The translations under genes and the position numbers were made by a program. Positions 3,953-49,909 of a DNA stretch of 64,000 bases are shown here, one piece after another. Location of the stretch: NCBI RefSeq assembly GCF_947500995.1, contig NZ_CANMUA010000001.1, positions 558,001 to 622,000 on the forward strand, given 5' to 3'. A model generated the notes under the pieces. The model did not search any database. It was not told the DNA's origin and worked only from the letters and a program-made list of their open reading frames with translations. The DNA is from an uncultured Serinicoccus sp. (GTDB lineage Bacteria; Actinomycetota; Actinomycetes; Actinomycetales; Dermatophilaceae). Within the stretch, counting starts at the first letter, position 1. Every line of letters starts with the position of its first letter.

Positions 3953-3991
3953 CGTGCGCGTCCGTGGCCCGACGAGGGCCACGAGGGCACA
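3953..3991. repeat. Divergent copy of the 39-bp palindromic intergenic repeat
   Basis: This contains the inner arms GTGGCCC (3963-3969) and GGGCCAC (3975-3981) around GACGA, with outer GTGCGCG and GGGCACAC arms that pair only partly. It lies between sepX and the acetyltransferase gene and matches the layout of the better copies at 38-39 kb and 49.6-49.9 kb. Confidence 0.6.
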
Positions 3992-4006
3992 CGGTCGGGT
4001 GCGCGC

Positions 4007-31183: not shown

Positions 31184-32026
31184 TCAGCCGACCCGGCCGT
31201 AACCGGAGACACCGTCGAACACCGGGCGCAGATCGAGGACCTTGCCCGGTCGGGGCGAGTCGTACATCATGCCGTTGCCGGCGTAGATGCCGATGTGGTA
31301 GGCGGGGTACCCGTAGAAGATCAGGTCGCCGGGCTGCGGGTCGCTGACCGGGGTGGCGTACGCCTGCTGGGCGGCGGCGGTGCGCGGCAGCGAGATGCCC
31401 ACCGCCGCGAAGACGTAGCTGGTGAAGCCGGAGCAGTCGAAACCGGCCGGGGTGCTGCCACCCCACTGGTAGGGCGTGCCGACCAGGCCGGCGGCGATAC
31501 CGAGCACGCCACCGGTCGGGGCGGGAGCCGCGGCGGGCTCCGGCTGGGACTGGACGGCCGGCTCGGCCGGGGCCGCGGGCTCCGGGGTGGCGGTGCGCTC
31601 GTTGGTGCGGCTCGCGCTGGTCTCCTCACGGGCGGAGACCTGCTCGGTGACCTGCTCCTGCGCGGGAGCGGCCTGCTCCTGCTGCGCGGGGGCGGCCTGC
31701 GCCGGCTCCTCGACCTCCACCTCGACCTCGGGGGTGTAGGCGGAGAACCCGCCGATCCCGAAGGAGTCGAGCTCGATGTCGGACGGGGCGGCGACGGCCT
31801 CGGCCGGACGGTCCACGGTGACCGTGCGGTCGGCGCTGACGCCCACACCGAGACGGAGCAGGCCGTCACGGTCCTGGGGCACCTCGGGTGCTGCGTTGGC
31901 GCTCAGCGCCGCACCGGCCAGCAGGCCGGTCGACGTCGCGGCCACGGCCGCCGTGCGGGTCAGGGTGATGCTGGTCGTGCGGAGACGACCGGGCCGACGG
32001 TGGCGGCCGGTGGTGCGCTGCGTCAT
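31184..32026 (-). CDS. Secreted NlpC/P60 family peptidoglycan hydrolase
   Basis: 280 residues. A basic N-terminus and hydrophobic segment (about 19-45, ending ALSANAAPE) form a signal peptide. A Val/Glu then Ala/Pro/Gln-rich linker (about 95-170) could span the wall. The C-terminal NlpC/P60 domain (about 172-280) has the catalytic Cys in FDCSGF, His in AYHIGIY and a further polar residue near MMYDSPR, as needed to cut peptide cross-links. The start has a GGAGGAT ribosome site. The mRNA carries a ydaO-type c-di-AMP riboswitch, common for such genes in actinobacteria. Confidence 0.92.
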   Translation of the reverse strand: MTQRTTGRHRRPGRLRTTSITLTRTAAVAATSTGLLAGAALSANAAPEVPQDRDGLLRLGVGVSADRTVTVDRPAEAVAAPSDIELDSFGIGGFSAYTPEVEVEVEEPAQAAPAQQEQAAPAQEQVTEQVSAREETSASRTNERTATPEPAAPAEPAVQSQPEPAAAPAPTGGVLGIAAGLVGTPYQWGGSTPAGFDCSGFTSYVFAAVGISLPRTAAAQQAYATPVSDPQPGDLIFYGYPAYHIGIYAGNGMMYDSPRPGKVLDLRPVFDGVSGYGRVG

Positions 32027-32039
32027 GTAGATCCTCCAG

Positions 32040-32210
32040 TGCCTGCGGGGTGAGCTGTCGGGCTTCGGGCTGGAGTGCCCCTGGACCGGGTTGGCCGGTC
32101 CTTCGCCCCAAGGAGCCGCAGGGGCGGCTCCAGAGGTGGTTCCCCCGCTCCTGTCAAAGCGGTGTCGTACGTGCCACGGCCCCGATCGGCGCGCGGACAG
32201 GACTAGGCAG
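32040..32210 (-). ncRNA. Cyclic di-AMP riboswitch (ydaO/yuaA type)
   Basis: Read on the minus strand, this 5' leader has the conserved blocks of the ydaO class in order: GCCTAGTCCTGTCCG near the 5' end, GACAGGAGCGGGGGAACCAC (about 32154-32135), TTGGGGCGAAG, then AGCCCGAAGCCCGACAGCTC and ACCCCGCAGGC at the 3' end. TGCCT (32209-32205) can pair with AGGCA (32044-32040) as P1. The ribosome site and ATG of the NlpC/P60 gene follow within 15 bases. In known cases c-di-AMP binding turns expression off (family knowledge). Confidence 0.92.
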
Positions 32211-38073: not shown

Positions 38074-38112
38074 GTGCGCGGTCATGGCCCCGAGAGGGCC
38101 ACGGGCTCGCAC
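38074..38112. repeat. 39-bp palindromic repeat, copy 1 of the DUF559-flanking set
   Basis: Left arm GTGCGCGGT, then C, ATGGCCC, loop CGAGA, GGGCCAC and a degenerate right arm ending TCGCAC. It is located between the marR promoter and the DUF559 gene end. Confidence 0.75.
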
Positions 38113-38168
38113 AGCCTCCTGCCCTCACGTCCCGACACCGCCCCGGCTCAGCCCCAGCACGCACCTCC

Positions 38169-38207
38169 GTGCGCGGTCATGGCCCCGAGACGGCCACCAC
38201 CGCGCAC
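38169..38207. repeat. 39-bp palindromic repeat, copy 2 of the DUF559-flanking set
   Basis: Outer arms GTGCGCGGT (38169-38177) and ACCGCGCAC (38199-38207) pair perfectly; the inner arms are TGGCC and GGCCA. It is 34 bases from the stop of the DUF559 gene and could act as its terminator. Confidence 0.8.
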
Positions 38208-38241
38208 AGCCGCTCGCCCGCAGTGCCGCACAACGGGTGGC

Positions 38242-39207
38242 CTACGGGGACACCAGCCTCGCGTCGGTGGTGAAGGCGCAGCTCGGCGAGCAGGGCCCCG
38301 GCCGGCCGTCCCAGCCGTGTCGCCGCTGCACCAGTGCCACCTCGACCGCGAGCTCGCACGGGTGCAGGACGACATCGCTCCAGCCGGCCCGGAGCATGGC
38401 CCGGCCCTGCACCAGGCCGTTGCGGTCGCGGGCCCGGTCGAGGTGCTCGCGGTCCGCGTGGAACAGCGCCCCGTCGATCTCGACCCCGACACCGCGCTCC
38501 GGGTCGAGCAGGTCGAGGTACTGCAGCCCCTCCGTGGGGGTGGCCCCTCGGGTGCCGACCAGCTCACCCGACGGGGCCACCGCCACCTGTGGGGTCATGG
38601 TGGGGAGCCCGTGGGGCCGCTCGACGTCGCGGACGTAGCGCCACTCCGCCACGCTGCCCAGGCCCAGCTCGGCCGCCTCCAGCACCGTCTCGAGCTCGGC
38701 CCGCCGGGGATGGCTCGGGTGGTGGGCCAGCTCGGCCCGGAGCACGGCCGGGCTCGAGCGACCCGGCCGGCAGGCCCGCAGCAGCAGGGCCACCATCTCG
38801 TCGTCATCGGTCCGGGGCAGAGCCAGGACGTCGAGGACGCTCTGGTGCAGCCCGCTCACGGGGATGCCGGAGCGGACCGCCCGGGTCAACCGCCGTCGAC
38901 GGCGCACCCGGACACCACGCAGGTCCGCGCGCAGGGTGCGGGCGGCCGGGATCGCGACGGTGATGACCGGCGGCCGACGGTCGCTGAGGCCCCACAGTGG
39001 CAGGGCGCACTCCTCGCTCGCGACGGCTCCCGGGCCGGCGGCCAGCACCGCTGCCGCCACGCGCTCCTGCCAGACGATGGGTCCGGAATGGGTGAGGTAG
39101 ACCCCGCGGTGCATCACCTGCCACTGCCTCCGGGCGAGCAGGCCGCGGACCTGCTTGGCCGACCGCCCGGCCGCCAGCGCCTGCTTCCTCGTCACGACCC
39201 CCTGCAC
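38242..39207 (-). CDS. AbiEi-like N-terminal plus DUF559 (Vsr-like fold) protein
   Basis: 321 residues. The N-terminus VVTRKQALAAGRSAKQVRGLLARRQWQVMHRGVYL (about 4-38) is a winged-helix AbiEi/type IV antitoxin-like start. The C-terminal third carries the DUF559 endonuclease-like pattern VGVEIDGALFHADREHLDRARDRNGL, with E and D in the EID position and a conserved DR. No toxin gene of the AbiEii type is adjacent. GTG 39207 was chosen for the match to the conserved start; CAGGCT 6 bases upstream could be a -10 box. Copies of a 39-bp palindrome lie on both sides. Role unknown. Confidence 0.78.
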   Translation of the reverse strand: MQGVVTRKQALAAGRSAKQVRGLLARRQWQVMHRGVYLTHSGPIVWQERVAAAVLAAGPGAVASEECALPLWGLSDRRPPVITVAIPAARTLRADLRGVRVRRRRRLTRAVRSGIPVSGLHQSVLDVLALPRTDDDEMVALLLRACRPGRSSPAVLRAELAHHPSHPRRAELETVLEAAELGLGSVAEWRYVRDVERPHGLPTMTPQVAVAPSGELVGTRGATPTEGLQYLDLLDPERGVGVEIDGALFHADREHLDRARDRNGLVQGRAMLRAGWSDVVLHPCELAVEVALVQRRHGWDGRPGPCSPSCAFTTDARLVSP

Positions 39208-39269
39208 GGGTCCAGCCTGACAGTGCGGCGACGTCCTTGGGCCCGTCGTCCACAGGGCACCCTCCCGCC

Positions 39270-39339
39270 GTGCACGGTCGTGGCCCCCAGAGGGCCACAG
39301 GTGCGCACAGTCATGGCCCCGAGGTGGCCTCCAGCCGCT
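39270..39339. repeat. 39-bp palindromic repeat (39270-39308) with an overlapping partial copy
   Basis: The full copy has left arm GTGCACGGT, inner arms GTGGCCC and GGGCCAC around CCAGA, and right arm GTGCGCAC. Those last 8 bases are reused as the start of a partial copy (39301-39339) with TGGCCCC and GTGGCC. It lies just upstream of the DUF559 gene. Confidence 0.75.
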
Positions 39340-39352
39340 CCACCCACCCGCC

Positions 39353-39391
39353 GTGCGCGGTCGTGGCCCCCAGAGGGCCACGGGGGCGCAC
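39353..39391. repeat. 39-bp palindromic repeat before the purine permease stop
   Basis: GTGCGCGGT, C, GTGGCCC, loop CCAGA, GGGCCAC and a right arm ending GGCGCAC. It ends 2 bases before the permease stop codon, so on the minus strand it is a hairpin directly after that gene. Confidence 0.8.
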
Positions 39392-39393
39392 GG

Positions 39394-40857
39394 TCAGACG
39401 CCGAGCAACCCCCGGATCGGGTCGATGCCGAAGTAGACGAGGAAGAGCACGGCCACCAGCCACATGAGCGGGTGCACCTGCTTGGCCTTGCCGCGCACCA
39501 CCTTGAGCAGGACCCACGTGACGAAGCCGGCGCCGATGCCCGCGGTGATGGAGTAGGTGAACGGCATGAAGACGATGGTGAGGAAGGCCGGGAAGGCGAT
39601 CTCGAGGTCGTCCCAGTCGATGCCGACGACCTGCTGCATCATGAGGAAGCCCACGACGACCAGCGCCGGCGTCGCGGCCTCGTGCGGCACGATCGCGACC
39701 AGCGGCGACAGGAAGGTCGTGAGCAGGAAGAGCACGCCGGTGACCACGGAGGCCAGCCCGGTCCGCGCGCCCTCGCCGACCCCCGAGGCGCTCTCGATGT
39801 ATGACGTGTTGCTGCTCACCCCGCCGGCGCCACCGGCGATGGCACCGATGGAGTCGACGACGAGGATCTGCCGGGTCCGGGGCGGGTTGCCCTCCTCGTC
39901 CAGCAGCCCGGCCTCGGCGCCGACCGCGACCATGGTGCCCATGGTGTCGAAGAAGTCGGCCAGCATGAGGGTGAAGACGAGCAGGAACAGCGCCGTGAAC
40001 CCGATGGCCTCGACCGAGCCCAGCAGGCTGAACTGACCCAGCAGCGAGAAGTCCGGAGCGGCCACGACGCTGTCCGGCAGGGCGGGCACCCCCAACCCCC
40101 ACCCGGTGGGGTTGCTGCCGTCGGGGGCCTGCGGCCCGATCTCGAAGACCGCCTCGACGAGGATCGCCAGGAGGGTCCCGCCGACGATGCCGTAGAGGAT
40201 CGCCCCCTGCACCCGCAGGGCCATGAGCGCGGCGATCGCGAAGAGCCCGACGAGGAAGACCACCGTCGGCCAGCCGGCGAGGAAGCCGCCGACGCCGAGC
40301 TCGACCGGGACCGGGCCGCTGGCGGGCCGGCGCACGATCCCGGCGTCGACCAGGCCGATGATGGTGATGAACAGGCCGATGCCGACGCTGATCGCCGTCT
40401 TGAGCTGGGTGGGCACGGCGCGGAAGACCGCCTCCCGGAACCCGGTCAGCACGAGCACGAGGATGATGATGCCCTCGAGCACGACGAGCCCCATCGCGTC
40501 GGCCCAGGTCATCCCGTCCAGGCTCGCGATGCCGTAGGCGACGAAGGCGTTGAGGCCCAGCCCGGTCGCGAGCGCCAGCGGGTAGTTCGCCACCACCCCC
40601 ATGAGCACCGACAGCACCCCCGCGACGAGGGCGGTGCACGCGGCGATGACGGCCAGGTCCCCGCCCGCGAGCAGCTCGCCGGTGCCGTCGGGCACGGTGC
40701 CGATGATGAGCGGGTTGAGCACGACGATGTAGGCCATCGTGAAGAAGGTCGCGAGCCCGCCCCGGAGCTCTCGCGCGAGCGTGGACCCGCGCTGCGAGAT
40801 CTGGAAGAAGCCGTCGAGGGAACCCGGGGAGCGCGTGTCCGGCGCGGTGGTCGACAT
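39394..40857 (-). CDS. AzgA-type purine (guanine/hypoxanthine) permease, NCS2 family
   Basis: 487 residues, about 12-14 transmembrane segments. The motifs ALATGLGLNAFVAYGIA (about 90-106) and SSNTSYIESASGVGEGART (about 340-358) are those of the AzgA branch of nucleobase:cation symporters, which import guanine, hypoxanthine or adenine. ATG 40857 was chosen over an in-frame upstream start because TACGCT ends 7 bases before it (leaderless) and a longer version would overlap the divergent gene. Its promoter shares a -10 box with that gene. Confidence 0.9.
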   Translation of the reverse strand: MSTTAPDTRSPGSLDGFFQISQRGSTLARELRGGLATFFTMAYIVVLNPLIIGTVPDGTGELLAGGDLAVIAACTALVAGVLSVLMGVVANYPLALATGLGLNAFVAYGIASLDGMTWADAMGLVVLEGIIILVLVLTGFREAVFRAVPTQLKTAISVGIGLFITIIGLVDAGIVRRPASGPVPVELGVGGFLAGWPTVVFLVGLFAIAALMALRVQGAILYGIVGGTLLAILVEAVFEIGPQAPDGSNPTGWGLGVPALPDSVVAAPDFSLLGQFSLLGSVEAIGFTALFLLVFTLMLADFFDTMGTMVAVGAEAGLLDEEGNPPRTRQILVVDSIGAIAGGAGGVSSNTSYIESASGVGEGARTGLASVVTGVLFLLTTFLSPLVAIVPHEAATPALVVVGFLMMQQVVGIDWDDLEIAFPAFLTIVFMPFTYSITAGIGAGFVTWVLLKVVRGKAKQVHPLMWLVAVLFLVYFGIDPIRGLLGV

Positions 40858-40863
40858 GCGCGT

Positions 40864-40870
40864 TAGCGTA
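40864..40870. promoter_or_regulatory. Divergent leaderless promoters sharing one -10 box
   Basis: TAGCGTA reads TAGCGT on the plus strand (40864-40869, 6 bases before GTG 40876) and TACGCT on the minus strand (40870-40865, 7 bases before ATG 40857). The two -10 hexamers overlap by five bases in a gap of 18 bases. Confidence 0.65.
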
Positions 40871-40875
40871 GTCGG

Positions 40876-41157
40876 GTGAGCACCGGTCCCCAGCACGCCG
40901 ACGACGACCCCGCCGCGGCCGGCCGCGGCGGACACCTCGCCCCCCTGCAGCCGCCGGAGGTGCCGCTGCGCACGATCACGCTGGTCCGCTGGGGGACCCT
41001 CGCCTGGGGGGTCGTGCTGCTCGTGCTGCTCGTCGTGCCGACGCTGCGCAGCGGCGACCGCGACTGGTGGGTGTGGGTGCCCGTCGCCGGGATCGTCGGT
41101 GGCCTGCTGGGGTATAGCTACCTGCGCCGCGGCAAGGGCAACGCCGCCGCGGCGTGA
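40876..41157 (+). CDS. DUF2530 membrane protein
   Basis: 93 residues: hydrophilic N-terminus, PPEVPLRTITLVRWGTLAWGVVLLVLLVVP as TM1, a DRDWWVWVPVAGIVGGLLGYSYLRR TM2 with the conserved Trp pair and a basic end. This matches DUF2530, a small actinobacterial two-helix protein of unknown role usually located beside the permease, DUF3027 and cold-shock genes, as here. Leaderless start. It converges on the DUF3027 gene with 9 bases between stops. Confidence 0.85.
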   Translation: MSTGPQHADDDPAAAGRGGHLAPLQPPEVPLRTITLVRWGTLAWGVVLLVLLVVPTLRSGDRDWWVWVPVAGIVGGLLGYSYLRRGKGNAAAA

Positions 41158-41166
41158 CTCCGGGGC

Positions 41167-41922
41167 TCAGCGCTCGGTGAAGACGATCTCGGTCTCGTCG
41201 TCGAGCACCGGGGGGTCGATCTCCTCGCTGGGCCGCTGCTCGACGTCGACCTCGCTGTGGGCGCCGCAGCCGAAGTCGAGGGCCACGACGGCACCGTCGG
41301 CCGGCGACCACTCGTTGGCGCAGACGCCGAAGACCGAGCGCAGCGCGCCGGACATGGGGACGAAGTAGCCGCAGGTGCGGCACGGCGCGGGCGCCTTCCG
41401 GGCGCCCTCGCTGGCGGGTCCGTGCTCGCCGTCGTGCCAGCGGGTCGCCGCCGCGTCGCGACCCTCGGGCGAGAGGACGCGGGGGCGACCCAGGCCGAGC
41501 TCCCACAGGGCGACGGCGTCGACGTCCTCCTCGCCGGTGGCCTCGAAGCCGGCCTCCAGCCGCGGGTCGTCCTCGACGAAGGCGGTGCGGTCCCCGGGGC
41601 CGATGTCGCCGGGTGCCAGACGTTCGGCGTACGGCACCCACTCCGGCGCGAGCAGCGCGCCCTCGCCGGGCAGCAGGTGCACCTCGCTGACGGTGGCCTT
41701 GCGCGCCCGCGGGACCCGGGAGAGGGTGACCGCCCAGCGCCAGCCCGGGTAGGCGGAGGCGGAACAGGCGAAGTAGTGCGTCGCCAGCCGCTCGGCCTCC
41801 AGCACCACCTCGAGGTGCTCGCCGACCGTCCCGGGCTCGGCGATCTCGAGAGCGGCGGCGCGGGCGACCTCGACCGCCCCGGTCAGGACGGCATCGCTCT
41901 TCGGGCTCCTCGCGGTGGGCAT
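41167..41922 (-). CDS. DUF3027 family protein
   Basis: 251 residues. HYFACSASAYPGWRWAVTLSRVPR (about 49-72), SEVHLLPGEGALLAPEWVPYAERLAPGD and CRTCGYFVPMSGALRSVFGVCANEWSPADGAVVALDFGCGAHSE match DUF3027, an actinobacterial family of unknown role. Four Cys in the C-terminal part (CxxC, then C and C) suggest a zinc site. ATG 41922 lies 5 bases after the cold-shock gene stop, so they are one operon; the pairing is conserved in actinobacteria. Confidence 0.88.
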   Translation of the reverse strand: MPTARSPKSDAVLTGAVEVARAAALEIAEPGTVGEHLEVVLEAERLATHYFACSASAYPGWRWAVTLSRVPRARKATVSEVHLLPGEGALLAPEWVPYAERLAPGDIGPGDRTAFVEDDPRLEAGFEATGEEDVDAVALWELGLGRPRVLSPEGRDAAATRWHDGEHGPASEGARKAPAPCRTCGYFVPMSGALRSVFGVCANEWSPADGAVVALDFGCGAHSEVDVEQRPSEEIDPPVLDDETEIVFTER

Positions 41923-41927
41923 CCGGG

Positions 41928-42329
41928 TTACTTCCCCGCCTCGAACTGGTCGGCGACCGCGCGCAGCGCCTTCGCCATGGCCGTGCCGTGCGGGCGGTCG
42001 GGGTAGTGACCCCGGCGCAGCGAGGTGGAGGCCTGGTCCAGCAGGGTGATGAGGTCCTCGACGACGACCACCATCTCCTCGGCCGGCTTGCGGTCCCGCA
42101 TCGACAATCCGCGGGAGACCGAGGGCGCCGGGTCCATGAGCCGCACGTGCAGCGCCTGGTCGCCGCGCTTGCCGGCGACGATGTCGAACTCGACCTTGCT
42201 GCCGCGCTCCAGCGCACCGACGCCGTCGGGCAGCGCGGAGCGGGGTACGTAGACGTCGTGGCCCTCGTCGCTGGACAGGAAGCCGAAGCCCTTGTCCTCG
42301 TCGAAGAACCTGACCTTGCCGGTGGGCAC
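41928..42329 (-). CDS. Cold shock domain protein with C-terminal extension
   Basis: 133 residues. The first ~65 are a cold shock domain: VPTGKVRFFDEDKGFGFLSSDEG has the RNP1 motif KGFGF, and HDVYVPRSAL replaces the usual VFVHxS RNP2. A further ~65 residues (MRDRKPAEEMVVVVEDLITLLDQASTSLRRG...) form a helical tail not found in CspA. It should bind single-stranded RNA/DNA. GTG 42329 was chosen by the domain start, with TGAGG upstream. Operon with DUF3027. Confidence 0.9.
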   Translation of the reverse strand: MPTGKVRFFDEDKGFGFLSSDEGHDVYVPRSALPDGVGALERGSKVEFDIVAGKRGDQALHVRLMDPAPSVSRGLSMRDRKPAEEMVVVVEDLITLLDQASTSLRRGHYPDRPHGTAMAKALRAVADQFEAGK

Positions 42330-42420
42330 GGAGAACCTCACGAAGGGTGTGGGGGATGAACGGGGTCCACCGAGGATATCCCGCACGAGGGCGCGGGTCG
42401 AATGGCTTCCCCGGGGCAGA

Positions 42421-42460
42421 CCTCACCCCCGGTGCCGGATGGGCGGCACCGGGGGTGAGG
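42421..42460 (-). terminator. 16-bp hairpin terminator after amt
   Basis: Exact arms CCTCACCCCCGGTGCC (42421-42436) and GGCACCGGGGGTGAGG (42445-42460) with an 8-base loop, 24 bases beyond the amt stop. Confidence 0.85.
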
Positions 42461-42484
42461 CGACTCGCGTGTCGCCCCGAGCGA

Positions 42485-43750
42485 CTAGACGCGGGCCTCC
42501 TCAGCGATGGGGTCGTAGGAGGCATCCCCCTCACTGAAGGCATAGGCGGACTCGCTGTGCTCGGACAGGTCGATGCCGCGCTCCTCGTCCTCCGGGCTGA
42601 CCCGGAAGCCGATGGTCTTGGCGATGACGAGGGCGATGACCGTCGTCATGACACCCGTGTAGAGCAGCGTGAAGACGGTGGCCACGACCTGGGCGACCAT
42701 CTGGTCCATGCCGCCACCGTAGAACAGGCCGCCGCCCTCGCCCTCGACCGGCAGGGCCACGAAGCCGATCATGACGGTGCCGATGATGCCGGCGACGAGG
42801 TGGACGCCCACCACGTCGAGCGCGTCGTCGTAGCCGAACTTGTACTTCAGGCCGACGGCGAGCGCCGAGCCGATCCCGGCGACCACGCCGAGGAGCAGGG
42901 CGCCCAGCGGGGAGACGCTGGCGCAGGCCGGGGTGATGGCGACCAGACCGGCGACGACACCGGAGGCCGCACCGATCGAGGTGGCGTGGCCGTCACGGAC
43001 CTTCTCGGTGACCAGCCAGGCGAGCATCGCCGCGGCCGGGGCGGCCAGGGTGTTGACCCAGATGAGGCCGGCCTCCTCGGCGGAGCCCGCGGCGCCGCCG
43101 TTGAAGCCGAACCACCCGAACCACAGCAGGGCGGTGCCGATCATGACCAGGGGGATGTTGTGCGCCTTGTGGAAACCCTTGGCGAAGCCGGCGCGCGAGC
43201 CGATGACGTAGACGAGGACGAGCGCGGCCAGCCCGGCGTTGATGTGGACGACCAGGCCGCCGGCGAAGTCGATGGCCTCGCCGAAGGTGCTGCCGATCCA
43301 GCCGTCGGCCGAGAGCAGGCCGCCGCCCCAGACCATGAAGGCCAGGGGGCAGTAGACCAGGGTGACCCAGACGGGCACGAAGACCGTCCAGGACGCGAAG
43401 CGGGTGCGGTCGGCGATGGCGCCGGAGATGAGGGCGACCGTGATGATCGCGAAGGTGGCGCCGAAGCCGATGCCGATGAGGTCGCTGGTGCCGACCGCGC
43501 CGGTCAGGCCGAAGTCACCGGCCGGGTTGCCGACGATGCCCCCGAGCAGCGGCGGGGCCGAGCTCATGCCGTAGCCCCACAGGACCCAGATGACGCCGAC
43601 CAGACCGATGGAGATGAAGGACATCATCACCATGTTGAGCGCGGCCTTGGCCCGGGCCATGCCGCCGTAGAAGAACGCGAGACCGGGGGTCATGAGCAGC
43701 ACGAGCGCCGCGGACACCATGACCCAGACATCGCTTGTCGAGAGTTCCAT
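42485..43750 (-). CDS. amt: Ammonium transporter Amt
   Basis: 421 residues, 11 transmembrane helices. GLAFFYGGMARAKAALNMVMMS (about 23-44), the signature DFAGGLVVHINAGLAALV (about 161-178), the pore His in KAHNIPLVMIGTALLWFGWFGFNGG and a second His in DVVGVHLVAGIIG are all present. The tail holds an acidic stretch and SPEDEERGIDLSEHSESAYAF. It imports ammonium under nitrogen limitation. No glnK/glnD follows, unlike in many actinobacteria. A GlnR-like site lies about 150 bases upstream. Confidence 0.95.
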   Translation of the reverse strand: MELSTSDVWVMVSAALVLLMTPGLAFFYGGMARAKAALNMVMMSFISIGLVGVIWVLWGYGMSSAPPLLGGIVGNPAGDFGLTGAVGTSDLIGIGFGATFAIITVALISGAIADRTRFASWTVFVPVWVTLVYCPLAFMVWGGGLLSADGWIGSTFGEAIDFAGGLVVHINAGLAALVLVYVIGSRAGFAKGFHKAHNIPLVMIGTALLWFGWFGFNGGAAGSAEEAGLIWVNTLAAPAAAMLAWLVTEKVRDGHATSIGAASGVVAGLVAITPACASVSPLGALLLGVVAGIGSALAVGLKYKFGYDDALDVVGVHLVAGIIGTVMIGFVALPVEGEGGGLFYGGGMDQMVAQVVATVFTLLYTGVMTTVIALVIAKTIGFRVSPEDEERGIDLSEHSESAYAFSEGDASYDPIAEEARV

Positions 43751-43894
43751 CGTTGTGCCTCCAGTGAGTGGTGCGGACGAGTGACCTCCCTGGGGTCACG
43801 TCGTCGGGGTGGGAGGTCACGTCGCTGTGGGCACCAGTCAAGACCGGCCATGTTTCAGGACCAGGCGCATCCGCGTAACAAGTGTGTTGCCGAT

Positions 43895-43910
43895 GTTTCC
43901 GTCGCGTAAA
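43895..43910 (-). promoter_or_regulatory. Putative GlnR-binding half-site upstream of amt
   Basis: On the minus strand TTTAC (43910-43906), six bases, GAAAC (43899-43895) matches the GTnAC-n6-GAAAC half of the actinobacterial GlnR consensus. A GTTAC follows at 43879-43875 and a GAAAC about 18 bases further, but their spacing departs from the full consensus. Nitrogen control of amt by GlnR is well known in the group. Confidence 0.5.
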
Positions 43911-43939
43911 TCTTTCGCCGCCACCGCGGGGTCCGGCCC

Positions 43940-44956
43940 TCAGGGGGACTGGAGCAGGGCGTGCGCGCGGGTCAGCCGGGCGCGCCACCAGGCCTCGCGC
44001 TCCGCGCCCCCCCGGTATGCCGTGAGCGCGGCCGGGTCGACCGCGTCCCGGGCCGCGTCGGCCCGGAGCACGGTGAGCCCTCCCCCCGCCGGCACGAGCG
44101 GCTCGGCGACGACGTCGGCGGCGAGCAGGGCCCCGGTGCCCAGGCCGCAGTCGTGCTCCAGGACGGGCAGCGCCGCGGCGAGCCGCACCCCCAGGGCCAG
44201 CCCCACCGAGGTGTCCAGGGCGGAGGAGACGACGGCGGGGAGGCCGGCCTGCTCGATGACGGCCAGCGCCCGCGCGACGCCGCCCAGCGGCGCCGCCTTG
44301 ACCACCACCAGGTCGGCCGCCCCCCGGCGGGCGACCTCCACCGGGTCCTCGGCACGGCGCACCGACTCGTCCGCGGCCACGGGGACGTCGACCCCGGCCC
44401 GCGCCAGCGCCAGCCGGAGGGCGGCCAGCTCCGGCACGGTGGCGCACGGCTGCTCGGCATACTCCAGCCCCAGCGGCGCGAGGGCGGTGAGGGCCCGCAC
44501 GGCGTCGTCCACCGACCAGGCGCCGTTGGCGTCGACGCGGATCCGCGCGGCCGGGCCGAGGACGCGCCGCACCTCGCGGACCCGCCCGAGGTCGTCGGCG
44601 AGCGACTGCCTGGCCTCCGCCACCTTGACCTTGGCGGTCCGCCGCGCGTCGTACCGCGCGAGCACCCCTTCGACCTCACCCGCGGCGACCGCCGGCACCG
44701 TCGCGTTGACCCCGACCGTGTCGCGCACCGGGTCCGGCAGCCCGCCCCACCCGGCCTCCACCGCGGCCTCGAGCCAGCGCGCGGCGTCCGCGTCGGCGTA
44801 CTCGGTGAACGGCGCCCACTCGGCCCACCCGCGCGGCCCCCGCAGCAGCACCGCCTCCCGCTCGGTCACCCCGCGGAAGCGCACCCGCAGCGGCAGGGTC
44901 ACCACGTGCGCGGAGGCCAGCAGCTCGTCGAGGTCGGGGGTCGGCGTCGGGGGCAC
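43940..44956 (-). CDS. menC: o-Succinylbenzoate synthase
   Basis: 338 residues, enolase superfamily. It dehydrates SHCHC to o-succinylbenzoate in menaquinone synthesis. The motifs are VGVNATVPAV (about 96-105), the catalytic Lys in KVKVAE, metal ligands in RVDANGAW, EYAEQP and VAADES, and the second Lys in VVVKAAPLGG. GTG 44956 follows TACCCT by 6 bases (leaderless), which settled the start against longer frames. Divergent from the VOC and menB genes. Confidence 0.93.
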   Translation of the reverse strand: MPPTPTPDLDELLASAHVVTLPLRVRFRGVTEREAVLLRGPRGWAEWAPFTEYADADAARWLEAAVEAGWGGLPDPVRDTVGVNATVPAVAAGEVEGVLARYDARRTAKVKVAEARQSLADDLGRVREVRRVLGPAARIRVDANGAWSVDDAVRALTALAPLGLEYAEQPCATVPELAALRLALARAGVDVPVAADESVRRAEDPVEVARRGAADLVVVKAAPLGGVARALAVIEQAGLPAVVSSALDTSVGLALGVRLAAALPVLEHDCGLGTGALLAADVVAEPLVPAGGGLTVLRADAARDAVDPAALTAYRGGAEREAWWRARLTRAHALLQSP

Positions 44957-45053
44957 CGCCCCAGGGTAGGCGGGCCCCGGAGATCCGCCTCGCGGACGCC
45001 CGCTGACCGGGTCGCGGAGCACACTGGGGACCTCGATCGAGAGAGGACGCCCC

Positions 45054-45464
45054 ATGGCACTGAAGTGGTACACCGTCGTCGTCGACTGCGCGGACCCCCA
45101 GGCGCAGGCCCGCTGGTGGGCCGAGGCGCTCGACTGGCTCGTGGTCTACGACACCCCGGACGAAGCGGTGGCCGTCCCCCGCCAGGCGATGGAGGCGCCG
45201 CAGCACGAGCCGGACCTCGACGCCTGGATGCAGCGCGGGCAGGGTCTGGTCTTCGTGCCGGTGCCGGAGGGCAAGGAGGTCAAGAACCGCCTCCACATCG
45301 ACCTCGCCCCGCACACCAGCCAGGACCGCGACGCCGAGATCCAGCGGCTGCTCGACCTGGGTGCGACCCGCGTGGACGTGGGTCAGACCGAGGAGCACAC
45401 CTGGACGGTGCTGGCCGACCCCGAGGGCAACGAGTTCTGCGTGCTGTCGACCCGCGACGGCTGA
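45054..45464 (+). CDS. VOC family (glyoxalase-like) protein
   Basis: 136 residues with a glyoxalase/bleomycin-resistance fold: KWYTVVVDCADPQAQARWWAEALDW at the start, LHIDLAPHTSQDRDAEIQRLLDLGATRVDVG in the second half, and the metal-type end VLADPEGNEFCVLS. Likely the actinobacterial PF18029-like branch; substrate unknown. ATG 45054 has a GAGAGGA ribosome site. It lies between menC and menB. Confidence 0.88.
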   Translation: MALKWYTVVVDCADPQAQARWWAEALDWLVVYDTPDEAVAVPRQAMEAPQHEPDLDAWMQRGQGLVFVPVPEGKEVKNRLHIDLAPHTSQDRDAEIQRLLDLGATRVDVGQTEEHTWTVLADPEGNEFCVLSTRDG

Positions 45465-45504
45465 CCGCCCGGACCGGCCCCGCCCACCGCCTAGGCTGGC
45501 CCGC

Positions 45505-46446
45505 GTGAGCGAACAGAGCACCACGGCAGGCCACCCCTTCGACCCCGACCAGTGGGAGCCGGTCGAGGGCTTCGACCTCACCGACCTCACCTACCACCGG
45601 CACCGCGAGCTGGGCTGCGTCCGCATCGCCTTCGACCGCCCGGAGGTCCGCAACGCCTTCCGCCCGCACACCGTCGACGAGCTCTACCGCGCCCTCGACC
45701 ACGCCCGGATGACCCCGGACGTCGGCGTGGTCCTGCTCACCGGCAACGGACCCTCGCCCAAGGACGGGGGCTGGGCGTTCTGCTCCGGCGGCGACCAGCG
45801 CATCCGCGGCCGCAGCGGCTACCAGTACTCCTCCTCCCCCGACGCCGACCCCACCCGCGGCGGGGTGGACGAGGCCCGGGTCCGGGCCGAGGGCGGGCGG
45901 CTGCACATCCTGGAGGTCCAGCGGCTCATCCGCACCATGCCCAAGGTCGTCGTGGCGGTGGTCGGCGGGTGGGCGGCCGGGGGCGGGCACAGCCTGCACG
46001 TCGTCTGCGACCTCACGATCGCCTCCCGCCAGCACGCGCGGTTCAAGCAGACCGACGCCGACGTCGGCAGCTTCGACGCCGGCTACGGCTCGGCATACCT
46101 CGCCAAGATGGTGGGGCAGAAGAACGCCCGCGAGATCTTCTTCCTCGGCCGCGCCTACGACGCCGAGCAGATGCAGCGGATGGGGGCGGTCAACATCGTC
46201 GCCGACCACGCCGACCTCGAGACCGAGGCGGTGCAGGCGGCCCGCGAGATCCTCGGCAAGAGCCCGACCGCGCAGCGGATGCTGAAGTTCGCGCTCAACC
46301 TCACCGACGACGGCCTCATGGGCCAGCAGGTCTTCGCCGGCGAGGCGACCCGGCTCGCCTACATGACCGACGAGGCCGTCGAGGGCCGCGACTCCTTCCT
46401 GGAGAAGCGCGCCCCGGACTGGCGCGCCTACCCCTGGTACTTCTGA
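45505..46446 (+). CDS. menB: 1,4-Dihydroxy-2-naphthoyl-CoA synthase
   Basis: 313 residues, crotonase fold. It cyclises o-succinylbenzoyl-CoA. Visible: RPEVRNAFRPHTVDEL (about 49-64), FCSGGDQRIRG (oxyanion hole), VVGGWAAGGGHSLHVVCDL, TDADVGSFDAGYGSAYLAK with the catalytic Asp region and the C-terminal DWRAYPWYF typical of MenB. GTG 45505 follows TAGGCT by 7 bases (leaderless). It heads the plus-strand menaquinone block. Confidence 0.95.
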   Translation: MSEQSTTAGHPFDPDQWEPVEGFDLTDLTYHRHRELGCVRIAFDRPEVRNAFRPHTVDELYRALDHARMTPDVGVVLLTGNGPSPKDGGWAFCSGGDQRIRGRSGYQYSSSPDADPTRGGVDEARVRAEGGRLHILEVQRLIRTMPKVVVAVVGGWAAGGGHSLHVVCDLTIASRQHARFKQTDADVGSFDAGYGSAYLAKMVGQKNAREIFFLGRAYDAEQMQRMGAVNIVADHADLETEAVQAAREILGKSPTAQRMLKFALNLTDDGLMGQQVFAGEATRLAYMTDEAVEGRDSFLEKRAPDWRAYPWYF

Positions 46447-46561
46447 GCGGCCCGCACCCGGGGCGGTCCGTACCCCCGGCTGCCGCACCCCGGGGGCCGG
46501 CGCCCCACCGTGAGAGGATGACGGGGCCGATCACGGCCGCGACCAGGGAGGACCTTCCGCG

Positions 46562-47188
46562 ATGCGACGCCCACTCATGGCCCTGCTGGCCGCCCCCGCC
46601 CTGTTCCTCGCCGCCTGCGACGGCGGCGCGGAGGTCGTCGAGACCACCGGCGGGACCTCCGCGGAGGGCACGGACGACGCGGCCCTGACCAGCGGGGCAG
46701 GCGCCTCCGACGAGACCGCCGCCACCGACGACGCGGCGGTGACCAGCGCCGCGCCCGACGGGGTCGAGGGCGGCGAGGAGGGGCAGGCCGCCGCCGACCG
46801 CGCCAAGGAGTTCCTGCTCGCCCTGGTCGACGCGGACCCGGCGGCCTGCGGCCTCATGCTCTCCTTCACCGACACCAGCCGGCCGATGTCCGAGGTGCCC
46901 GAGGACCTCGAGCTCTGCGAGGAGCAGCTGCCCGAGACCATGTCGGCCGCCGTCGAGGCCCAGGGCCTCGGCGAGGAGGGCCGGGACATCCTCGGCGCCA
47001 TGCAGCTACGGGGTGCCGAGATCGGCGCCGAGGGCGACACGGCCGTCATCGACGAGGACAACTACTCCGAGCTCTTCGCCGAGTCGATGGGGGACTCGAC
47101 CATCACCCTGGTCCGGATCGACGGCGAGTGGTTCATCGACGTCGAGCGCTTCCTGCAGACCCCCGAGCCCGGTGACGGCGGACGCTGA
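46562..47188 (+). CDS. Putative lipoprotein between menB and menE
   Basis: 208 residues. The signal MRRPLMALLAAPALFLAAC ends in a lipobox (LAAC, Cys19), followed by an acidic Thr/Ser/Gly-rich linker (about 20-75) and a compact C-terminal domain AKEFLLALVDADPAACGLML...TITLVRIDGEWFIDVERFLQ, resembling DUF4878/NTF2-like lipoproteins. Two further Cys may form a disulfide. A strong GGGAGGA ribosome site precedes the ATG. The 3' end overlaps menE by 17 bases. Function unknown. Confidence 0.8.
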   Translation: MRRPLMALLAAPALFLAACDGGAEVVETTGGTSAEGTDDAALTSGAGASDETAATDDAAVTSAAPDGVEGGEEGQAAADRAKEFLLALVDADPAACGLMLSFTDTSRPMSEVPEDLELCEEQLPETMSAAVEAQGLGEEGRDILGAMQLRGAEIGAEGDTAVIDEDNYSELFAESMGDSTITLVRIDGEWFIDVERFLQTPEPGDGGR

Positions 47189-48323
47189 CGACCTGGTCGT
47201 GCCGCCCGGCGCGACCTGGGCCGACCTCGGGCCGCCGCTGCGCGCGCTGATGGACGGCGCCGACGGACGCCCCGTCGTCGTCGCGACCTCCGGCTCCAGC
47301 GGGACCCCGAAACGTGTCCGGCTCCCCGCCGCGGCGCTGCGCGCCTCGGGCACCGGCACGGCCGAGCGGCTCGGCGGGCACGGGCAGTGGCTGCTCGCCC
47401 TGCCCACCCACCACGTCGCCGGGCTGCAGGTGCTCGCCCGGTCCGCGCTGGCCGGCACCGAGCCGGTCGAGCTGGACGCCGCGCGCCCGTTCACCGCGAC
47501 GGTCCTCGCCGCGGCCGTCGGCAGGCTGGACCCCGGCACCCGCCGCTACGCCTCCCTCGTCCCGACCCAGCTGCACCGTGCCCTCGCCGACCCCGGGGGC
47601 GTGGCCGCCCTGCGGGACCTGGACGCGGTCCTCGTGGGCGGTGCGGCCACCGACGACGGGTTGCTCGCACGGGCGCGGGCGGCCGGCGCCCGCGTCGTCA
47701 CGACCTACGGCATGTCCGAGACCTGCGGCGGCTGCGTCTACGACGGGGTGCCGCTGCCCGGGGTGCGGGTCGAGGTGACCGCCGAGGGCCGCGTCCGGCT
47801 GGGCGGGCCGGTCCTGGCCGAGGGCTACGTCGACGACCCGGACCGCACGGCGCGGTCCTTCGTCACCGACGCCTCCGGCCGGTGGTTCCTCACCGAGGAC
47901 CGCGGGGTATGCCGTGCCGGTCGGCTCACCGTCCTCGGCCGGGTCGACGACGTGGTCGTCTCCGGTGGGCACAAGGTCGAGCCGCGCGACGTGGAGGCGG
48001 CGCTGCGGGCGCTGCCCGAGGTGCAGGACGCCCTGGTCGTCGGCCTGCCCGACCCCGAGTGGGGGCAGCGCGTGGCCGCCCTGGTCACCCTCGAGCCGGG
48101 CCCGGCCTCCGCCGCCCAGGACGACGCGCAGCGGCACCGCGCCGAGCCCACGGTGGCCGACGACCTGCGCGCCGCCCTGCGCCGGAACCTGCCCGCGCAC
48201 GCGGTTCCGCGGCAGGTCGAGGTGGTGGACGGCATACCGGCGCTGCCCACCGGCAAGCCGGACCGGGCGGCGGCGCGGCGACTGCTCGACGCGGGTGGCA
48301 GAATGAAGCCTCACCTGCACTGA
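47172..48323 (+). CDS. menE: o-Succinylbenzoate-CoA ligase
   Basis: 383 residues, short acyl-adenylate enzyme. Motifs: VVVATSGSSGTPKRVRL (P-loop, about 36-52), VTTYGMSETCGGCVYDG, FLTEDRGV, GRVDDVVVSGGHKVEPRDVEA and the catalytic Lys in LPTGKPDRAAARRL near the end. It activates o-succinylbenzoate with CoA and ATP for MenB. GTG 47172 overlaps the lipoprotein gene, implying coupled translation. Its length is shorter than typical AMP ligases but usual for actinobacterial MenE. Confidence 0.92.
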   Translation: MTADADDLVVPPGATWADLGPPLRALMDGADGRPVVVATSGSSGTPKRVRLPAAALRASGTGTAERLGGHGQWLLALPTHHVAGLQVLARSALAGTEPVELDAARPFTATVLAAAVGRLDPGTRRYASLVPTQLHRALADPGGVAALRDLDAVLVGGAATDDGLLARARAAGARVVTTYGMSETCGGCVYDGVPLPGVRVEVTAEGRVRLGGPVLAEGYVDDPDRTARSFVTDASGRWFLTEDRGVCRAGRLTVLGRVDDVVVSGGHKVEPRDVEAALRALPEVQDALVVGLPDPEWGQRVAALVTLEPGPASAAQDDAQRHRAEPTVADDLRAALRRNLPAHAVPRQVEVVDGIPALPTGKPDRAAARRLLDAGGRMKPHLH

Positions 48324-48340
48324 CGTGGAAGGAGGCAGAC

Positions 48341-48619
48341 GTGCTCCGTGTGGTCGTCGCCGTAGCGCTCCTGGCGTTCGTCGTCTTCACCGTCGTCGAC
48401 GCCGTGCAGACCGACAAGCACCAGGTGCGCGGTCTGCCGAAGCCGGTGTGGGTCGTCGTGTGCGTGATCCTCCCGGGCATCGGCGGCCTGGCCTGGCTCG
48501 TCGCCGGGCGCCCCCGCAGCCTGCTCGACATCATCTTCGGGGACCGGGGCGGACGCTCCGGGCGCCCCCGCGGCCCGCTCGGGCCGGACGACGACCCCGA
48601 CTTCCTGCGAGACCTGTAG
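48341..48619 (+). CDS. PLD nuclease N-terminal (PLDc_N) domain membrane protein
   Basis: 92 residues, two transmembrane helices: VVVAVALLAFVVFTVVDAV and VWVVVCVILPGIGGLAWLVAG with the conserved KPVW and LPGIGGLAW pattern of PLDc_N, then a basic/acidic tail. It occurs without a phospholipase domain. GTG 48341 has an AAGGAGG ribosome site. Located between menE and menA; this neighbourhood is common in actinobacteria. Role unknown. Confidence 0.87.
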   Translation: MLRVVVAVALLAFVVFTVVDAVQTDKHQVRGLPKPVWVVVCVILPGIGGLAWLVAGRPRSLLDIIFGDRGGRSGRPRGPLGPDDDPDFLRDL

Positions 48620-48629
48620 GAGCCCGCCG

Positions 48630-49505
48630 ATGGCCACCCTCGCCCAGTGGATCGAGGGCGCGCGACCGCGCACCCTCCCCGCCGCGCTCGCCCCCGTGCT
48701 CGTCGGCACCGCCGCCGCGGACGCCCTCGGCGCCGCGGACCTCGGTCTCGCGGTGCTGGCGCTGTGCGTCGCGCTCGGCTTCCAGATCGGCGTCAACTAC
48801 GCCAACGACTACTCCGACGGGATCCGCGGCACCGACGAGGAGCGGGTCGGACCGGTCCGGCTGGTCGGGCAGCGGCTGGCCGACCCCGCCAACGTCCGGA
48901 CCGCCGCGTTCGCCGCGTTCTTCGGCGCGGGCCTGTGTGGCCTGGCCCTCGTGGCGCTGTCCGGGGCGTGGCTGCTCATCGTGCTCGGCCTGCTGGCCGT
49001 GTGGGCGGCCTGGCACTACACCGGCGGCGCGAAGCCCTACGGCTACCGCGGGCTCGGCGAGGTCATGGTCTTCGTCTTCTTCGGGCTCGTCGCCGTGCTC
49101 GGCACCACCTGGACGCAGGCGCAGGCCCTCGACCTCGCGGCCCTCGGCGGCGCCGTCGGCTGCGGCCTGCTCGCCAGCGCCATTCTCGTCACGAACAACC
49201 TGCGTGACCTCGAGGGCGACCGCGCCGCGGGCAAGCGCACCCTCGCCGTCCGCATCGGCTTCCGGCGCACCCGCCGGCTCTACGCCGGGCTCCTCGTCGG
49301 TGCCTTCGTCGCGGTCCTGGTCGCCGCGCTGGCCCACCCCCTGGCCCTGACCGGCCTGCTCGCCGCCCCGCTCGCCTGGCGCCCGTACCGCCTGGTCACC
49401 GACCCCGACGCCTACGGCCCGGCGCTGCTGCCGGCGCTGGCGCAGACCGGGGTCCTGCAGCTGGGGTATGCCGTCGCCCTGTCGATCGGCCTCGTCCTGT
49501 CCTGA
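48630..49505 (+). CDS. menA: 1,4-Dihydroxy-2-naphthoate polyprenyltransferase
   Basis: 291 residues, UbiA superfamily membrane enzyme that attaches the isoprenoid tail in menaquinone synthesis. NYANDYSDGIRG (about 56-67) is the first Asp-rich Mg site and NNLRDLEGDRAAGKRTLAVRIG (about 190-211) the second. ARPRTLPAALAPVLVG is the usual start. ATG follows the upstream stop by 10 bases. Downstream lies a cluster of palindromic repeats. Confidence 0.94.
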   Translation: MATLAQWIEGARPRTLPAALAPVLVGTAAADALGAADLGLAVLALCVALGFQIGVNYANDYSDGIRGTDEERVGPVRLVGQRLADPANVRTAAFAAFFGAGLCGLALVALSGAWLLIVLGLLAVWAAWHYTGGAKPYGYRGLGEVMVFVFFGLVAVLGTTWTQAQALDLAALGGAVGCGLLASAILVTNNLRDLEGDRAAGKRTLAVRIGFRRTRRLYAGLLVGAFVAVLVAALAHPLALTGLLAAPLAWRPYRLVTDPDAYGPALLPALAQTGVLQLGYAVALSIGLVLS

Positions 49506-49909
49506 GGTGGCCTGGGGCCTGGGGCCCGTGCCCGCCCACGCCGGCAGCGCCTGCGCGATCCCGTCCCCAGGGGCTCTTGCGTGTGCGGTCGTGGCCCTTG
49601 GAGGGCCACCACCGCGCACAAGCCAGCCCACCCGACCGCTCGACCAGCCTCGCCAAGCTCTACGTGCGCAGTTCTGGCCCCTGGAGGGCCACCACCGCAC
49701 ACAGACCAGCCCCACCTGATCGCTCAGGCCCCGGCGAGGCCCCGTCCTGTGCCACACGGCCTCCGCGAGCCCTACGTGTGTGCGGTCGTGGCCCTTGGAG
49801 GGCCACCACCGCGCACAAGCCAGCCCACCCGACCGCTCGACCAGCCTCGCCAAGCCTCCACGTGTGCGGTCGTGGCCCCTGGAGGGCCACCACCGCGCAC
49901 GACCGCGGC
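49506..49909. repeat. 404-bp gene-free region with four 39-bp palindromes
   Basis: Palindrome copies lie at 49581-49619, 49664-49702, 49778-49816 and 49862-49900. In the best copies the arms are GTGTGCGGT and ACCGCGCAC (outer) and GTGGCCC and GGGCCAC (inner), with a 5-base centre. A 78-bp segment, 49581-49658, is repeated exactly at 49778-49855 (palindrome plus 39 bases of spacer), so the array grew by duplication of a two-palindrome unit of about 197 bp. It lies between the converging ends of menA and the DUF4229 gene. Confidence 0.88.

Follow-up and report, generated by a model that had tools for sequence, protein, structure and literature searches.

The closest described parallels to the locus examined here are REP/BIME elements with their RAYT transposases, and AbiEi antitoxins. 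REP/BIME elements are dispersed, imperfect palindromes of 20-40 bp that lie in convergent or codirectional gaps, are partly clustered and vary in sequence between species, while RAYT genes have two inverted flanking copies of the same palindromes (PMC2817692 and PMC3733652). AbiEi antitoxins, among them S. agalactiae AbiEi and M. tuberculosis Rv2827c, belong to the type IV toxin-antitoxin system AbiE; according to PMC7319586, AbiEi proteins bind paired 23-bp inverted repeats of their own promoters, S. agalactiae AbiEi doing so cooperatively and bending the DNA. The present family shares the REP-like traits, down to a gene with its palindromes on both sides, but this gene encodes a different, unrelated type of protein, with a predicted AbiEi-like module joined to a DUF559/Vsr-like domain. 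Near-symmetric copies, in arrays, flank this gene on either side in all five Serinicoccus-clade genomes, and the family is further set apart from REP/RAYT by the absence of Y1 from the genus, of a clear GTAG/CGTC tag and of general complementary change, and by helically phased arrays. As in AbiE systems, the N-terminal region matches AbiEi models and a palindrome lies upstream of the protein's own gene; unlike them, the protein has a C-terminal nuclease-like domain, and palindromes also occur behind the gene and at many other genome places. With Vsr/DUF559 endonucleases it shares weak profile matches and conserved D and E-x-D residues, and it differs from them in the fusion to an AbiEi-like module, in three invariant cysteines and in being palindrome-bracketed.

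The window, i.e., the whole stretch of 64,000 nucleotides analysed from an uncultured Serinicoccus sp., contains the following features (palindromes are listed without strand).

3954..3992: 39-bp palindrome, sequence divergent, following a GNAT acetyltransferase gene by 14 bp, at a site common to three other genomes
38074..38112: 39-bp palindrome behind the AbiEi-nuclease gene, second copy from it
38169..38207: 39-bp palindrome behind the AbiEi-nuclease gene, closest copy, about 35 bp past the stop
38242..39207, minus strand: palindrome-bracketed gene (321 aa, GTG start) with a predicted AbiEi-like DNA-binding module and DUF559/Vsr-like nuclease-type domain
39270..39308: 39-bp palindrome in operator position, 62 bp before the AbiEi-nuclease start codon
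39314..39330: incomplete copy, a one-mismatch inner core
39353..39391: 39-bp palindrome, +83 bp from the 39270 copy, 2 bp past a permease gene
49581..49619: 39-bp palindrome, array copy 1 of 4, between convergent UbiA and DUF4229 genes
49664..49702: 39-bp palindrome, array copy 2 of 4, same gap, +83 bp
49778..49816: 39-bp palindrome, array copy 3 of 4, same gap, +114 bp
49862..49900: 39-bp palindrome, array copy 4 of 4, same gap, +84 bp

A sequence-only reading had proposed at least nine 39-bp copies in the window, all intergenic and next to gene 3′ ends, and indeed nine were found, each 39 bp long and each in a gap adjoining a gene 3′ end according to a simple gene caller. Near the copy at 39270, where it had noted an overlapping partial, a partial core lies at 39314-39330. 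Eight of its start coordinates are correct, but the divergent copy starts at 3954 rather than 3953, and the outer arms it gave (GTGYGCGGT/ACCGCGCAC) are exact only at 38169, 49581, 49778, and 49862, the other five copies differing in spacer or arm. The wider search it had suggested yielded further copies: 30 in the genome with the full pattern at ≤2 mismatches (reversed-pattern control, 0), and 167 at 74 sites across the five Serinicoccus-clade genomes. The inner core alone, one mismatch allowed, matched 12 times against 7.4 expected, no clear excess over chance given that 12 was attained in 8 of 100 shuffles. Chance hits (window 27350, L037 1690) and chance-like 3-mismatch hits (G108 3336648, G126 C8:721, G133 C5:49014) were removed before counting, and one 4-mismatch copy of a G108 array was added.

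The conserved consensus consists of four hexamers at 11-bp steps, GTGYGC-N5-TGGCCC-N5-GGGCCA-N5-GCRCAC. Hexamer columns carry 1.6-2.0 bits, except for the C/T position 4 (0.97), and spacers 0.5-1.0. Copies with zero to five hexamer mismatches number 106, 49, 9, 2, 1, and 2, respectively, and beyond this counts are near the reversed control; this distribution derives from 706 kb around known sites, so that lone decayed copies elsewhere would escape. A literature search covering part of the work on bacterial stem-loop families met no earlier description of the 39-bp family. By flanking genes, 35 of the 74 sites are convergent, 37 codirectional, and 2 divergent, and at 72 the gap borders on a gene 3′ end; a single gap holds up to 10 copies, and overlap with a called gene is seen in one copy of 167. 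Most sites (65/74) are common to more than one species, which indicates that spread is slow or past. Eight are common to all five genomes, two of these being the two flanks of the AbiEi-nuclease gene. A common function of neighbour genes was rejected, as 10 proteins at five sampled shared sites were unrelated.

Conservation and spacing of the copies fit a site in duplex DNA. Between copies at shared sites, differences affect 35 of 1188 hexamer positions (2.9%), 149 of 540 spacer positions (28%), and 114 of 270 loop positions (42%). The proposed selection for a hairpin is unsupported and was rejected, since the variable arm positions are complementary less often than in shuffles: across 151 distinct copies, pair 10/30 matches in 17% (shuffles, 42%) and pair 4/36 in 43% (shuffles, 51%). 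Nor do the arm changes previously regarded as compensating form a general pattern, the exceptions being two isolated copies with a paired double change inside a hexamer. Distances between copies instead follow whole helical turns of ~10.4 bp (R 0.69 at 10.5 bp, 93 spacings). This phasing was equalled by none of 2000 jittered sets for the 72 distinct within-array spacings, and a set reduced to a single spacing for each shared site (n = 14) gave an R of 0.89 at 10.4 bp (p ~1.6e-5), a period picked after the earlier spacing scan. Two orientation markers disagree regarding transcription: among codirectional copies, with arrays counted per copy, position 4 gave 24 same, 18 opposite, and 29 undecided, and position 10 gave 12, 34, and 25. 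Taken together, hexamer conservation, helical phasing, and lack of pairing covariation fit a protein-binding site, making the palindrome a candidate site read in duplex DNA. CRISPR-like arrays were rejected because repeats of the 63-bp arrays diverge and some linkers are duplicated, and an Rfam RNA because no match was found at the copies.

The AbiEi-nuclease gene, which lies between two palindrome clusters, went unremarked in the sequence-only reading. Its nearest upstream palindrome is 60-62 bp from the start in all five genomes. The N-terminal region matches the PADLOC AbiEi model (1.5e-22), and 27 of 35 homologs match Pfam AbiEi_4 (at best 1.6e-10), the window protein itself scoring 19.2 bits, under the 25-bit cut-off. 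For the C-terminal domain, the DUF559 profile gave weak matches in 7 of 35 homologs and the Vsr profile in 1 of 35, while acidic residues are conserved across 62 homologs (D232 and D245, 100%; E243, 98%). We read these three as putative PD-(D/E)XK-type catalytic residues, although the nuclease assignment of this domain is a weak one. A structure model (mean pLDDT 49) is usable for the N-terminal helix-turn-helix region only. Carriage of the gene by plasmids (no plasmid match) or phages (one phage record, covering 56% of the query) was rejected.

Homologs elsewhere are bracketed by other palindromes, with upstream matched to downstream copies in 27 of 58 cases compared to 0 of 716 control genes; many homologs are related, and a Fisher p for this comparison overstates independence. 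The set includes 40 other-genus homologs, the better full-length places among the matches listed, and omits L169 for its assembly gap, L177-L183 as broken, distant, or lacking a match, and L173-L176, which earlier had yielded no palindrome; with the last four included the count is 27/62. A matched pair is thus absent at about half of the homologs examined. Upstream and downstream palindromes match in 27 of 30 within-gene comparisons and 40 of 870 between genes, and bracketing recurs at non-syntenic places with different palindromes. When homologs are set against controls of like intergenic length, the surplus persists upstream (19/38 homologs vs. 9/58) but not downstream (10/21 vs. 10/24), a region in which ordinary terminators may be present as well.

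Based on these sequence comparisons, we consider it reasonably probable that the palindromes are sites of the AbiEi-like nuclease-domain protein (38242-39207), forming a REP-like family derived from its flanks. One protomer would take a 17-bp half (GTGYGC-N5-TGGCCC), i.e., two hexamers one helical turn apart, and two protomers would bind the inverted pair of halves; array sites would be kept on the same helix face, allowing contact between bound dimers. The gene's operator would be the copy ~60 bp upstream of it. Dispersed copies would derive from the gene's own flanks, probably aided by the nuclease, with those beside gene 3′ ends now held there by selection. That the protein binds the copies, regulates its own gene, acts as a nuclease, and helped in the spread is inferred.

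That the palindromes are instead terminators or 3′-end RNA hairpins, stopping or stabilising transcripts of converging or tandem genes, appears unlikely. Their near-exclusive placement beside gene 3′ ends, often between convergent genes, would suit such a role, as would the paired double change in two copies and the strong inverted repeats that follow many ordinary genes of these genomes as well (the 10 of 24 matched control gaps). However, TTTT occurs within 12 nt on either side of 0 of 167 copies, on which ground an intrinsic terminator with T-run was rejected, and a role in RNA accounts poorly for below-chance pairing, helical-turn spacing, and up to 10 copies per gap. Upstream palindromes of homologs are also equally common with divergent (13/18) and codirectional neighbours (28/39). 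Far less probable still is a true REP/BIME family mobilised by a RAYT transposase. The REP/BIME resemblance drawn in the sequence-only reading extends to length, clustering, dispersal beside gene 3′ ends, and a bracketed gene, but Y1_Tnp (PF01797) matches neither the own genome nor any of 31 from the genus, compared to 5 of 14 control genomes, and RAYT was rejected as mobiliser. Similarly, GTAG and CGTC show no clear enrichment near the ends: up to 8 bp away they occur at 6 and 13 of 334 ends, relative to 6 and 31 of 668 stretches further out.

Hexamer conservation and phasing call for a DNA-binding protein, not for the AbiEi-nuclease protein specifically, and the sites could thus belong to another DNA-binding or topological protein (nucleoid, gyrase-like) acting at gene ends, with the AbiEi-nuclease gene a mere neighbour. 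Unrelated neighbours at the sampled shared sites are consistent with this, as is genome G117, in which the ACCGCGGT family numbers about 11 copies and which has no close homolog (closest match, 2.0e-12), indicating that copies can exist without the gene. We nevertheless regard this alternative as improbable, given that matched palindromes of different sequence bracket homologs at non-syntenic places and not control genes, and that the gene's two flanks are among the eight sites common to five genomes.

Under the preferred assignment to the AbiEi-nuclease protein, the repeated pairing in relatives suggests that a protein and its scattered target sites form a partnership not described before. 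A broader possibility, which we put forward tentatively, is a second, independent REP-like system, in which an AbiEi/Vsr-like fusion recognises, spreads, or renews species-specific palindromes, its target changing along with the copies at its flanks when the gene relocates between places and genera. If true, a different protein would be tied to dispersed palindromes, implying that such a life style arose more than once; this would hint at what an uncharacterised class of actinobacterial proteins does and provide natural protein/target pairs whose specificity varies by species. The binding idea lends itself to direct testing through the helical phasing. In a genome-wide search of four palindrome families (G121 places counted, positions unlisted), all four were dispersed, and the bracketing palindrome was dispersed in G118, G123, G139, G140, and G144. 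Several observations weigh against the assignment. G117 and G121 hold one 39-bp copy each, although neither has a gene bracketed by this family. Arrays of the ACCGCGGT family have a 38-bp step, not a whole number of turns. Palindrome and protein similarity were only weakly correlated across all non-syntenic pairs (Spearman 0.065, p 0.04), with a matrix correlation of 0.23 that none of 2000 permutations matched.

Every one of the nine palindrome copies named in a sequence-only reading of this DNA proved real in a pattern search of the window, and the further copies which that reading proposed to look for were found genome-wide and in relatives. The window's genome has 30 copies of the 39-bp element (GTGYGC-N5-TGGCCC-N5-GGGCCA-N5-GCRCAC), grouped in 16 clusters, and the Serinicoccus-clade relatives G108, G109, G126, and G133 have 36, 36, 22, and 43 copies, respectively, for a total of 167 over the five genomes. 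Allowing up to two mismatches, a survey of 186 genomes of the family found matches in 10, with more than two copies only in these five. An exact scan of a genome collection of 84,980 species, from which records close to the window's own were possibly omitted, yielded 34 stretches with the element, all within three assemblies (Serinicoccus chungangensis, S. sediminis, and an uncultured Serinicoccus isolate), and Rfam gave no match at the copies. Sites found in more than one of the five species made up 65 of 74, and 8 of 27 site groups were present in all five genomes. The genus members G117 and G121, otherwise devoid of this family, each carry one copy identical over 39/39 bp to a G126 copy, at the same convergent site and with a well-conserved flank (L048 6087, L049 5731, and L050 6338).

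The four hexamers, set at 11-bp steps, were nearly invariant across 151 distinct copies save for C/T at position 4, and the 5-bp spacers and centre were variable. Counted in the 706 kb surrounding known sites, copies with zero to five hexamer mismatches numbered 106, 49, 9, 2, 1, and 2, and those with six were near the reversed control (13 vs. 10). In 54 copy pairs, matched in order at shared sites having equal copy number, hexamers differed at 35/1188 positions, and spacers, loops, and position 4 differed at 149/540, 114/270, and 32/108 positions, respectively. Judged from sequence comparison, the palindrome sites are old and their hexamers are under constraint.

The sequence-only reading had taken unit length and compensating changes to suggest selection for a hairpin, which the 151 copies do not support: variable arm positions matched less often than in shuffles, both at pair 10/30 (17% vs. 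42%) and at pair 4/36 (43% vs. 51%), so the stem is not maintained there. Inheritance from an asymmetric ancestor may account for part of this deficit, and paired double changes, found in one copy each at pairs 1/39 and 14/26, count against a no-stem reading but are isolated. Sites were convergent (35), codirectional (37), or divergent (2) according to a simple in-house gene caller, with one of the 167 copies overlapping a called gene and none having TTTT within 12 nt. Ten neighbour proteins from five shared sites showed no common theme.

Within arrays, the copies are helically phased. Neighbour distances below 250 bp (n = 93) fell at 62-66, 71-74, 80-85, 93-98, 104, 112-114, and 119-125 bp, plus 157, 184, and 187 bp, leaving 67-70, 75-79, and 86-92 bp empty. 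The resultant at 10.5 bp was 0.69 for all 93 spacings and 0.64 for the 72 distinct within arrays, and jittering these 72 spacings 2000 times never gave a value as high as their observed maximum over 10-11 bp. When each shared site contributed a single spacing (n = 14), the median resultant was 0.89 at 10.4 bp (p ~1.6e-5), and 77% of 43 distinct spacings lay within 1.5 bp of a multiple of 10.4 bp, vs. 29% expected; four spacings of 119-121 bp are about half a turn out of phase. Proteins bound on one helix face would account for this spacing, and an RNA hairpin would not.

One gene stands alone between two palindrome clusters, an arrangement common to the five genomes, in each of which the closest upstream copy lies 60-62 bp ahead of the start codon:

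38242-39207, minus strand: AbiEi-nuclease gene (321 aa), sole gene between palindrome clusters 38074-38207 and 39270-39391

The N-terminal part of its product matches AbiEi models (PADLOC 1.5e-22, residues 2-170), and the C-terminal part weakly resembles DUF559/Vsr nucleases (DUF559 match in 7/35 homologs, best 0.0035). For the N-terminal part the best PDB profile matches were 6y8q and 9hlo, and for the C-terminal part 3hrl, an 'Endonuclease-Like Protein'; none was significant (E 0.48-1.2). Across 62 homologs, residues D232, E243, D245, E188, C284, C306, and C310 are each 98-100% conserved; the three invariant cysteines, near the C-terminus, mark this subfamily and may, at a guess, be metal ligands. 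An ARAGORN tRNA-Thr call at 38209-38292, overlapping the gene's 3' end, has no counterpart in the Rfam results and is therefore probably false.

Elsewhere in the genus, the homolog lies at different genomic places, with none of the window's permease, MarR, and MFS genes within 1.5 kb on each side, yet it is flanked by palindromes of other sequence. In G118 and G121, for instance, these have ACCGCGGT arms, in G123 they have GTGGTGACCCC arms, and in G135 they read GTGGCGA..TGGCCC..GGGCCA..TCGCCAC. An inverted repeat was present upstream of 17/22 inspected genus homologs and downstream of 11/22. Among homologs from other genera, strong inverted repeats occurred upstream in 20/40 (control flanks 13/183) and downstream in 18/40 (14/141); against length-matched intergenic controls the upstream excess persisted (19/38 vs. 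9/58), with no downstream excess (10/21 vs. 10/24). A more discriminating comparison asks if the palindromes on the two sides of a gene are the same, which was so for 27/58 homologs vs. 0/716 control genes, and for 24/53 homologs excluding the five genomes; 39 of the 716 control genes had palindromes on both sides, none matched. Upstream and downstream palindromes were similar in 27/30 comparisons within a gene vs. 40/870 between genes. Non-syntenic homolog pairs shared palindromes in 15/34 cases at ≥58% protein identity vs. 9/557 below 40%, with a weak rank correlation between palindrome and protein similarity over all such pairs (0.065, p 0.04).

All four palindrome families searched genome-wide, the 39-bp Serinicoccus element among them, were dispersed. 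The ACCGCGGT family has 52 copies in G118 and 12 each in G117 and G121, with 0-8 matches in the remaining genus genomes (reversed controls 0-4). The G123 family has 6 copies there, two at the gene, and none in 30 other genomes; the CTCTGAAGGAT family of another genus has 20, 6, and 5 copies in G139, G144, and G140, two each at the gene, and none in 8 other genomes. The gene was bracketed by the same family in 11 of the 12 genomes with more than two copies of one of the four families. The sole exception, G117, has ~11 ACCGCGGT-family copies and no close AbiEi-nuclease homolog (best 2.0e-12), possibly an orphan family left by gene loss. Beyond the genus, the only matches to the Serinicoccus pattern were in the family genomes G036, at one chance-like place, and G151, whose palindromes at C186:47717-47755 and 48902 (from L054) flank a homolog at C186:47803-48651. 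This unplanned check agrees, at the sequence level, with a gene-palindrome pairing. In G118 arrays, ACCGCGGT palindromes tile at a 38-bp step with shared ends, in contrast to the helical phasing of the arrays in Serinicoccus.

The DNA targets of AbiEi proteins are 23-bp inverted repeats located in the promoters of their own genes: S. agalactiae AbiEi binds two repeats 3 bp apart cooperatively and bends the DNA, and for Rv2827c the paired repeats lie 13 bp apart (PMC7319586). The palindrome ahead of the AbiEi-nuclease gene fits, by analogy, a putative operator. The scatter of one palindrome at gene ends and around one gene recalls REP repeats, which prefer gene 3' ends (PMC3733652), and the RAYT gene, for which flanking by a pair of inverted REPs is reported as invariable (PMC2817692); no RAYT transposase was found in 31 genus genomes. 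Taking the operator likeness, REP-like scatter, and absence of RAYTs together, we lean towards the 39-bp elements being dispersed candidate cognate sites of the AbiEi-like nuclease-domain protein. The nuclease may have spread these sites, or they may be maintained for a regulatory, topological, or defence-related role. Among the open-licence papers listed for REP families, Serinicoccus, Micrococcales, DUF559, AbiEi, and Vsr, none was seen to report such a pairing, which is weak evidence of absence; the words actinobacter-, actinomycet-, and Streptomyces are absent from the main text of PMC3733652.

The convergent UbiA/DUF4229 gap (49506-49909, orthologous loci L186-L215) is a hot spot. In its array at 49581-49900, copies 1 and 3 are identical and have most of the downstream linker in common, which points to a segmental duplication within the array. 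Read by eye, the gap holds other hairpins or repeats in relatives without the 39-bp family (G117, G135, G115, G106, G112, G122, and G128), is longer with other content in G110, G118, and G121, and spans just 3-87 bp in many other relatives. Elsewhere in the window, a c-di-AMP (ydaO/yuaA) riboswitch at 32025-32171 on the minus strand scores above the Rfam gathering threshold.
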